From NCBI GenBank assembly GCA_005883335.1, contig VAXM01000020.1, positions 1 through 39,386 of the forward strand: DNA of 39,386 nucleotides, given 5' to 3'. The notes under the pieces were generated by a model. That model made no database searches, was not told where the DNA came from, and saw only the letters and a list, made by a program, of their open reading frames with translations. Source of the stretch: Actinomycetota bacterium (GTDB lineage: Bacteria; Actinomycetota; Thermoleophilia; Gaiellales; Gaiellaceae). A program made the position numbers and the translations under genes. Below are positions 30,265 through 33,237 of this stretch, piece after piece (the stretch's first letter is position 1; each line of letters starts with the position of its first letter).

Positions 30265-31188
30265 TTACGAATCAGTATAGGCGCCCATCTGACGGACGGC
30301 CCTGCCCTCGCGGACGAGCCGCTCCAGGTGCGCAAGCGCCTCGGCAAGGGCAAAACGGCGGCCGCTGGCGTCCAGGTTGTCCCCGAACAGCGCCAGGGAA
30401 ACGTCGTAGCCGGTTCGCGGCTCAGGCCCGAGCGCTGCCGCGGTCTCGTCGAGGCGCTTGCGGTGATGCTCGACGATCTCGCGCGCGCGCGAAACCGGAT
30501 CGGCGATGAGCTCGCCGTGGCCCGCCAGCGCGAGCTTCGGCGCGAGCTCGATCGTCCGCTCGAGCGAGGCGAGGTAGTCCCCGAGCGGGTCGGGCCGCGA
30601 ATCGGGATAGAGCCCGACGGTCGGCGTGATCTCGCCGAGCAGGTGGTCGCCGGCGACGAGCACGCCGTCGCGCAGGAGGCAGATATGCCCGTCGGCGTGG
30701 CCCGGCAGCTCGAGCACCTTCCAGCCGTCGACCTCGTCGCCTTCGGCGAGACGCAGAGGGTCTCGCGCCCAACGGATGAACGGGCCGAAGATGCGCGACT
30801 CGTGCCGCAGCTCCTCCGCCACGGGCTCGGGTAGCCCGTGCCCGAGCAGATAATCGGCGAGCCGCTCCGACCAGTCCTCTCGCCCCCAGACCTGCTCGCA
30901 CTGCTCGTAGTCCCGCTCGCCCTGAAGGACTTGCGCGCCCGTCAGCCGCCGCGCGTCTTCGCCGCCGCCCGCATGGTCGGGGTGGAAGTGCGTGACGACG
31001 ATCCGGGCGACCGGCCCGTCGAGCCCGCGTAGGACCGGCTCCCAGCGAGCCTCGGCTTCGGGAAGACCGAGGCCGGTGTCGACGAGCGTCCAGCCGCCCT
31101 CGCCGGGCAGGAGGTAGCAATGGACGTGGAGAGGGCCCATCGGCAGCGGGAAGGTGAGTCGCCTGATCCCGTCTGGTAGCTCCGCCAT
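30265..31188 (-). CDS. MBL-fold metallo-hydrolase
   Basis: ATG 31188; VVTHFHPDHAGGGEDA, LPGHADGHICLL, VAGDHLLGEI, GHGELI. Confidence 0.93.
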   Translation of the reverse strand: MAELPDGIRRLTFPLPMGPLHVHCYLLPGEGGWTLVDTGLGLPEAEARWEPVLRGLDGPVARIVVTHFHPDHAGGGEDARRLTGAQVLQGERDYEQCEQVWGREDWSERLADYLLGHGLPEPVAEELRHESRIFGPFIRWARDPLRLAEGDEVDGWKVLELPGHADGHICLLRDGVLVAGDHLLGEITPTVGLYPDSRPDPLGDYLASLERTIELAPKLALAGHGELIADPVSRAREIVEHHRKRLDETAAALGPEPRTGYDVSLALFGDNLDASGRRFALAEALAHLERLVREGRAVRQMGAYTDS

Positions 31189-31190
31189 TA

Positions 31191-31204
31191 CGAACGTACG
31201 TTCT
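31191..31204. promoter_or_regulatory. Palindromic operator, LexA/SOS-box-like
   Basis: CGAACGTACGTTCt; GAACGTACGTTC is a perfect 12-bp palindrome directly abutting TATACT (31204-31209). Confidence 0.55.
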
Positions 31205-31215
31205 ATACTGCCGCC

Positions 31216-32118
31216 ATGCGCGCCGAGTATCGCGAAGAGCCCTGCAAGGCGGCGTTGAACCGAGTCAAGGGGATGATGTTCGACTGGTCGCTGAACCCGT
31301 ACATGGGTTGCGTCCACCGCTGCACCTTCTGCTACGTGCGCGCCTTCGAGCTGCGCGCCGACCGGCCGTTCGACGAGCGCTACGGACGCTCGATCCGGGT
31401 CAAGACGAACGTCGTCGAGGTGCTTCGGCGCGAGCTTTCGCGCGCGAGCTGGGAGCACGAGTCGGTGGTGATCGGCGCGGCCACCGATCCGTACCAACCC
31501 GTCGAGGGGCGCTACCGGCTGACGCGCGGCTGCATCGAGGCGCTCCGCGACCACTCGAACCCGTTCAGCATCATCACGCGCGGGCCGCTGATCATCCGGG
31601 ACGTGGACGTCCTCGCCGAGGCCGCGGCGCGGGCCTCGGTCTCCGTCACGTTCTCGATCCCGACGCTGGACGAGGAGGTCTGGCGCCGGACCGAGCCCGG
31701 CACGGCCCATCCGCGCCAGCGGCTGCGCGCGTTGAAGACGCTGGTCGAGGCGGGCGTCAAGGCGAGTGTCGGCATGGCGCCGATCCTGCCCGGGATCTCG
31801 GACCGGCCCGAGCAGCTCGAAGAGGTCGTGCGGGCCGCGCGGGAGGCGGGCGCCTGCGGTGTCTGGTCGAACCTGCTCTTCCTGCGGCCAGGAACGCGGG
31901 AGCACTTCCTCGAGGCGCTGGCCCGCGACTACCCCGGTCAGCTCGACCACTACGAGCGGCTCTACGCACGGCGGGCCTACCTTGGGAAGGATCAGACGAA
32001 GCCGGTGCGGGATCAGGTCGCGGCGCTGGCGAAGGAGCATGGCATCCGCGACCGCCGCCCCCTCCGGCTGGAGCCCGAGCCGCCCGTGATCGCGGAGCAG
32101 TTGACGCTGGCCGTGTAG
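31216..32118 (+). CDS. Rv2578c family radical SAM protein (SplB-like)
   Basis: MGCVHRCTFCYVRAFELRADRPFDERYGRSIRVKTNVVEVLRREL; CxxxCxxC radical SAM motif. Confidence 0.92.
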   Translation: MRAEYREEPCKAALNRVKGMMFDWSLNPYMGCVHRCTFCYVRAFELRADRPFDERYGRSIRVKTNVVEVLRRELSRASWEHESVVIGAATDPYQPVEGRYRLTRGCIEALRDHSNPFSIITRGPLIIRDVDVLAEAAARASVSVTFSIPTLDEEVWRRTEPGTAHPRQRLRALKTLVEAGVKASVGMAPILPGISDRPEQLEEVVRAAREAGACGVWSNLLFLRPGTREHFLEALARDYPGQLDHYERLYARRAYLGKDQTKPVRDQVAALAKEHGIRDRRPLRLEPEPPVIAEQLTLAV

Positions 32119-32165
32119 TTCGCTCGCGATGTAGGGCCCACGCTAGGTGGGGTAAGTTCGTCCCG

Positions 32166-33237
32166 GTGAAGGCGCGTTTCGTCGTTCTGGGCGCGGGCTT
32201 CGGCGGTCTCGAGCTCGCGACTCTCTTGTCCGAAGCGCTCGGCAGCGACGCCGGCATTGCGCTCATCGACGAGAACGACGCCTTCGTCTTCGGCTACTCG
32301 AAGCTCGACGTGATGTTCGGGCGCAAGGCGCCACGCGAGGTTCGCCTGCCGTATGCCGACTTCGCCAAGCCCGGTGTCCGCTTCTTGCGCGAGACGATCA
32401 CCGCGATCGATCCAGAGGCGCGGCGGGTGACGACCAACAGAGCTGTCCACGAGGCGGACGTCCTCGTCGTCGCCCTCGGCGCCGACTACGACTTCGACGC
32501 AACGCCCGGGCTCGCAGAGGGCGGGAGCGAGTTCTACTCCGTCCGCGGCGCCGAGCGGCTGCACGTGCCCGCCGGCGCCAAGCGAGGCGGCGTTGCTTCT
32601 AGACGACTACCTGTCGCGGCGAGGAGTCCGCGACGACTGCGAGATCTCGCTCGTGATGCCGTTCGGGACCCCGGTCCCTCCGTCGCCGGACACCTCGGCC
32701 GCGCTTCTGACAGCGTTCGCCGAGCGCGGCATCGAGTTCGTCCCCGGCCGCCGGGTGAGCTCGCTCGACCCGGGACGCAACGTCGCCGTGCTCGACGACG
32801 GCGCTGAGCTGCCATACGACCTCTTCCTCGGTGTCCCAAAGCACCGCGCACCCGACGTGGTCCTCGAGAGCGGGATGGCCACGGACGGCTACATAGCCGT
32901 CGATTCACGAACGCTCGAGACGCGTTTCGCGGACGTGTACGCCGTCGGGGACGTCGCGACCGTCGGCGTGCCGAAGGCGGGCGTGTTCTCGGAGGGTGCG
33001 GCCCGCGTCGTCGCCGTGTCACTGATAGCGCGAGTGCAGGGAGGTGAGCAGCCGCCAGCGTATGACGGGCGCGGTGCCTGCTACGTCGAGTTCGGAGCCG
33101 GCCGCGTCGGCCGGGTCGACGTCGACTTCCTCTCCGGGCCGAAGCCGACGGGTACGTTCCAGGAGCCGTCACGCGTCCTCGTCGCCGAGAAGCAGCACTT
33201 CGGGGCGAGCCGCAGCGCCCGCTGGTTCAACCACTGA
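32166..33237 (+). pseudogene. NAD(P)/FAD-dependent oxidoreductase, frameshifted with small internal loss
   Basis: 5' half in frame 3 (VKARFVVLGAGFGGLELATLLSEALG...EFYSVRGAERL) and 3' half in frame 1 (CPPAPSEAALLLDDYLSRRGVRDDCEISLVMPFGTPVPPSP...ARWFNH); junction about 32559-32566. Confidence 0.8.

Follow-up and report, generated by a model that had tools for sequence, protein, structure and literature searches.

A predicted LexA operator at a radical-SAM gene promoter in Gaiellaceae, conserved among homologues in the class Thermoleophilia

The window, meaning the whole stretch of DNA that was analysed, comprises 39,386 nucleotides (39 kb) of contig VAXM01000020.1 from a genome of the family Gaiellaceae (Actinomycetota; class Thermoleophilia). 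Two of its genes diverge from a short intergenic region that carries a LexA-box-like palindrome. The features of this locus are as follows.

31191..31204, no strand assigned: predicted LexA operator (SOS box), CGAACGTACGTTCT, based on the lexA-matrix score and on conservation
31192-31203: core of the operator, a perfect 12-bp palindrome, GAACGTACGTTC
31204..31209, + strand: putative -10 element (TATACT) for the radical-SAM gene; 54 aligned relatives have TATA-like bases at the corresponding position
31216..32118, + strand: radical-SAM protein of 300 aa, related to Rv2578c/PA0069 (PF04055, 1e-20; CxxxCxxC)
30265..31188, - strand: divergent MBL-fold hydrolase (PF00753, PF21221), a possible, unconserved second target

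The 14-mer CGAACGTACGTTCT matches the consensus CGAAC-N4-GTTCG at 9 of its 10 specified positions, and both this match and the perfect palindrome are present where the initial annotation had placed them. The last base is T rather than the G of the consensus, probably because the -10 element begins there; the first T of TATACT (31204) is at the same time the last base of the 14-mer. Apart from this shared base, the order of palindrome, TATACT and ATG is as first described, with a 6-nt spacer between TATACT and the radical-SAM ATG (31216). The position of this ATG, 6 nt 3' of the putative -10, suggests a leaderless transcript with a predicted start site at or near the start codon. On the other side, the ORF coordinates bear out the claimed proximity to the MBL gene, 3 nt lying between its ATG (start at 31188) and the GAAC of the operator core.

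A consensus match alone is no proof of an operator, because shuffled sequences yield one-mismatch matches as often (4 in the 39-kb window, against a shuffle mean of 2.97). More informative is a scoring matrix built from 29 lexA operators, all from other genomes and hence independent of the radical-SAM site. On this lexA-only matrix the site scores 19.4 bits, while the next best position in the window reaches 6.9 bits and the best score in 60 simulated windows was 16.7 bits. The lexA operators themselves score 21.8-29.0 bits, so that by matrix score the predicted radical-SAM operator is slightly weaker than those of lexA. In genome-wide scans, which were pattern searches, the exact 12-mer GAACGTACGTTC turned up at a single position of the 2.31-Mb genome, and exact GAAC-N4-GTTC was counted 21 times, compared to 11 occurrences of a reversed control motif.

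Of the 299 genomes in the class, 151 have a homologue of the radical-SAM gene. The sequence 5' of the gene was examined at 90 loci; two of them (L059 and L091) are cut by a contig end, leaving 88 that are usable. Every one of these 88 has an exact GAAC-N4-GTTC box 5' of the radical-SAM homologue, down to about 42% protein identity, although the loci are related and some genomes give two, so the counts do not represent independent events. Among the closest homologues (29/29) the exact box lies at -24 to -32, and it is equally constant in the remaining class homologues (59/59). In most of the distant ones it is found 90-160 nt before the aligned start, the greater distance being due to an N-terminal extension of those proteins. 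One set of loci (L036-L065, 110.6 kb) contains 29 exact boxes, all of them at the radical-SAM promoter, and no copy of the control motif. When 54 loci were aligned, the eight half-site bases were invariant, a C preceded the half-sites in 98%, a TATA-like stretch followed immediately, and conservation dropped outside the box. The motif scan upstream of homologues that the initial annotation had proposed thus finds the palindrome conserved throughout the class. By this sequence criterion, the 88/88 conservation settles that the box is real and not a product of chance. A chance palindrome in a GC-rich genome, which would fit the equal frequency of one-mismatch matches in the window and in shuffles, is barely credible when the exact box is at the promoter in every homologue and the matrix score is far above background.

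The genome encodes one convincing LexA (LexA_DNA_bind and Peptidase_S24 domains, contig C92), and its gene has the box GAACATACGTTC 40 nt upstream of the start codon. The radical-SAM site, at 19.4 bits, matches this operator of the genome's own lexA. In the family, 30/30 lexA loci, this genome counted, have an exact box at a distance of 25-64 nt 5' of the gene. Exact boxes also precede uvrA (C165) and dinB (C3), and there is a separate one before the DEDDh exonuclease/GIY-YIG gene located downstream of dinB on the same contig. The gene for an ImuB-like Y-family protein (C20) has a tandem pair of exact boxes 5', and a short membrane-LysM gene (C174; 3190-3402 of locus L031) has two tandem boxes, the second of which contains the start codon. 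The membrane-LysM protein is, judged by resemblance, a candidate division inhibitor of the YneA-like type. A single exact box lies between rplI and dnaB (C36). Together, these predicted sites make up a coherent SOS regulon. Two details may be added: dinB and the downstream exonuclease/GIY-YIG gene (L028) each have their own GAACATATGTTC box, and the membrane-LysM protein begins MFGKILMLAAL...YTVKPGDTLWSIA.

The LexA operators known from Actinomycetota and Bacillota (CGAAC-N4-GTTCG / tCGAAC-N4-GNNCGa) have the same half-sites, the same spacing and the same kind of place over the promoter, and the likeness extends to the lexA, dinB, imuB-like and uvrA genes of this genome, all of which have this box. 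It does not extend to recA, as there is no exact box in the cinA-thpR-recA operon region (L253, C185:22000-28500). LexA does not control recA in every bacterium, so this absence was not counted as disqualifying, and control of recA may differ in this lineage. Of the comparison with lexA and recA that had been proposed earlier, the lexA half therefore came out as expected, with the same type of box, but the recA half did not.

The comparison was extended to other classes of the phylum, with 60 Rv2578c-type loci. Near the start, 53 of these have the exact box and 4 a box with one mismatch, while three (L179, L182 and L206) have no near box. Conservation upstream of orthologues, as expected for a member of an SOS regulon, is thus found both within the class and beyond it. 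The exact box is present in Streptomyces sp. BHT-5-2 and Nonomuraea, there is one mismatch in Arthrobacter, and a Tsukamurella plasmid copy has no exact box. No LexA-like box was found at ten lower-scoring homologues in the phylum (L221-L230, seven of them from family f23), of which only L221 was classified, as PA0069-family. At four loci (L179, L180, L182 and L184) the Rv2578c-type match spans about 2 kb, apparently through the presence of inteins, and the exact box is kept in two of the four. A MAG labelled as Chloroflexi has the box GAACAAATGTTC.

The LexA motif of Alphaproteobacteria is GTTC-N7-GTTC, and this motif lies 25-80 nt upstream of PA0069-family genes in 7/9 alphaproteobacterial loci (two Azospirillum). 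It is missing from the Pseudorhodobacter gene, and in M. bullatum it is about 400 nt off. In the first alphaproteobacterial set (50.6 kb), all five GTTC-N7-GTTC motifs precede a PA0069-family gene. The gammaproteobacterial motif is CTGT-N8-ACAG, and a box of this type, CTGTATATATAAACAG, occurs in the Aeromonas copy, where a possible start follows 28 nt further on; no LexA motif was found upstream of the Legionella homologue. The comparison shows homologues in other phyla carrying the predicted LexA motif of their own group, with three motif types represented.

These distributions bear on whether the palindrome might be the operator of another repressor with a similar site. Palindromic operators of different regulators can look alike, and the support for LexA comes from computation. 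Nevertheless, the same motif stands at the genome's own lexA, at 30/30 lexA genes of the family and at other classical SOS genes, and another repressor would not explain why alphaproteobacterial homologues carry instead the LexA motif proper to their own group, so this possibility is given very little weight. It is all but certain that CGAACGTACGTTCT is an SOS (LexA) operator. Regulation of the radical-SAM gene by LexA in response to DNA damage, which the initial annotation had thought plausible, is strongly supported by this computational evidence: the site matches the box at the genome's own lexA, homologues retain it, and the SOS regulon is coherent.

The earlier suggestion that a repressor bound here could control both divergent genes holds only as a possibility in this one genome. 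With 3 nt between the operator core and the MBL start codon, a bound dimer would cover the MBL start region, and side-effects on the MBL gene are possible. However, a divergent MBL gene adjoins the radical-SAM gene at only 24 of the compared loci. There the separation between box and MBL start is anything between -14, which places the box inside the MBL frame, and +59, or extends to several hundred nt. The remaining loci keep the box, and the sequence read for them shows no MBL match. This small number of loci and the variable distance rule out the MBL gene as a conserved partner of the box. A single shared LexA operator for both genes is accordingly rather doubtful, as many relatives retain the box without an adjoining MBL gene and the box tracks the radical-SAM gene; the predicted operator is best assigned to the latter and not to the MBL gene.

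The explanation that best accounts for the whole, and in which we have high confidence, is that of a LexA operator with repression relieved by DNA damage, controlling an enzyme whose most probable targets are damaged DNA or nucleotides. The site, its conservation, the motif it has in common with lexA and the regulon are direct results of the computation. From these we infer that LexA binds and represses, that the gene is induced, and what the enzyme acts on. In the undamaged cell, a LexA dimer bound to GAACGTACGTTC would adjoin the -10 element, cover the region where the radical-SAM gene starts, and block RNA polymerase by occlusion. Once activated by single-stranded DNA, RecA would stimulate LexA to cleave itself, freeing the operator. 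The gene would then be transcribed along with lexA, dinB, the imuB-like gene, uvrA, the exonuclease/GIY-YIG nuclease gene and the LysM division-inhibitor-like gene. RecA-stimulated self-cleavage is established LexA biology, and it is from this and from the anatomy of the site that occlusion and release are proposed. The radical-SAM protein would use radical chemistry on damaged DNA or nucleotides, a role suggested by the company it keeps in the regulon and by its distant similarity to spore photoproduct lyase (SPL).

Predictions that place splB-like genes under LexA have been published for the alpha- and beta-Proteobacteria, with divergent motifs (PMC3323433), for a Gram-positive core regulon and Balneolaeota (PMC7739468), and for Bacteroidetes (PMC8565304). 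SplB-like radical-SAM genes in SOS-linked operons have also been noted (PMC3765255), and a LexA ChIP-seq study of S. venezuelae lists the radical-SAM gene vnz_31145 (PMC9380542). The box of vnz_31145, TCGACCGTTCGCTC at -61, differs from the one described here, so this gene may be another paralogue. Those SplB-like (COG1533) targets resemble the present case in that the same broad radical-SAM family is placed under whichever LexA motif the group uses. No report of such control in Thermoleophilia/Gaiellaceae was found in the literature searched. LexA control of SplB-like radical-SAM genes is thus already published, and the class-wide case described here is a new instance. The site itself is ordinary SOS biology, a sound and largely expected member of a known system. 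Its wider significance is that it supports, at the level of predicted regulation, SOS control, throughout an entire class, of a radical-SAM family that is poorly understood; the nearest named relatives in this class are metagenome-assembled genomes. That the regulation survives turnover of the LexA motif argues that the enzyme has a genuine role in the DNA damage response.

The radical-SAM protein belongs to the radical-SAM superfamily (PF04055, 1e-20), with the CxxxCxxC motif in the form CVHRCTFC and the invariant cysteines C32, C36 and C39. It scores 280.9 bits (1.1e-83) with the Rv2578c family model NF038135, where the equivalog cut-off is 430, and 198.3 bits (1.7e-58) with the PA0069 family model NF033668, where the cut-off is 360. 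Proteins of both families are homologous to it over most of its length and have the same CxxxCxxC, but it lacks the N-terminal extension of about 30 residues seen in Rv2578c-type proteins. By these profile scores it is a homologue of the Rv2578c family and not a member.

Identity as a spore photoproduct lyase was considered and rejected, as the score with TIGR04070 is 26.2 bits against a cut-off of 400, and SPL activity should not be assumed. In a profile search of the PDB, spore photoproduct lyase nevertheless came first among solved structures, although marginally (E 0.0015; 4fhe and others), and an EPGT region is common to both; phmmer gave no match in the PDB. In spore photoproduct lyase a fourth cysteine, C140/C141, is the hydrogen donor. 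Among ten diverse members of the present family, the cluster cysteines are the only three that are invariant, and the SPL region is not alignable residue by residue. On this sequence evidence the protein is SPL-like in the broad family sense only. The first description of it as Rv2578c-type and SplB-like is therefore right about broad homology, but the protein falls below the family cut-offs and is no genuine spore photoproduct lyase. With a mean pLDDT of 61 the AlphaFold model is of low quality, and its Foldseek matches are radical-SAM folds of a general kind (NifB, lipoyl synthase, SPL) at a query TM below 0.45, so no function was read from it. PADLOC gave no defence family match.

A more tentative proposal, to which we give somewhat less than an even chance, is that the Rv2578c/PA0069 group represents a core SOS repair enzyme for which LexA control has been kept or re-gained through changes of motif. 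Such an enzyme would act on a lesion other than the spore photoproduct, would do so without the H-donor cysteine of SPL, and would carry out an uncharacterised form of direct DNA or nucleotide repair. The radical-SAM protein (31216-32118) also matches the phage family phrog_13321 (1.5e-52, function unassigned), indicating that phages carry relatives of it. Downstream, an FAD/NAD(P) oxidoreductase-like gene (32160-33237) appears to be split between two frames around 32575-32595, with its N-terminal half in one frame and its C-terminal half in another, reflecting either a real frameshift or an assembly error.
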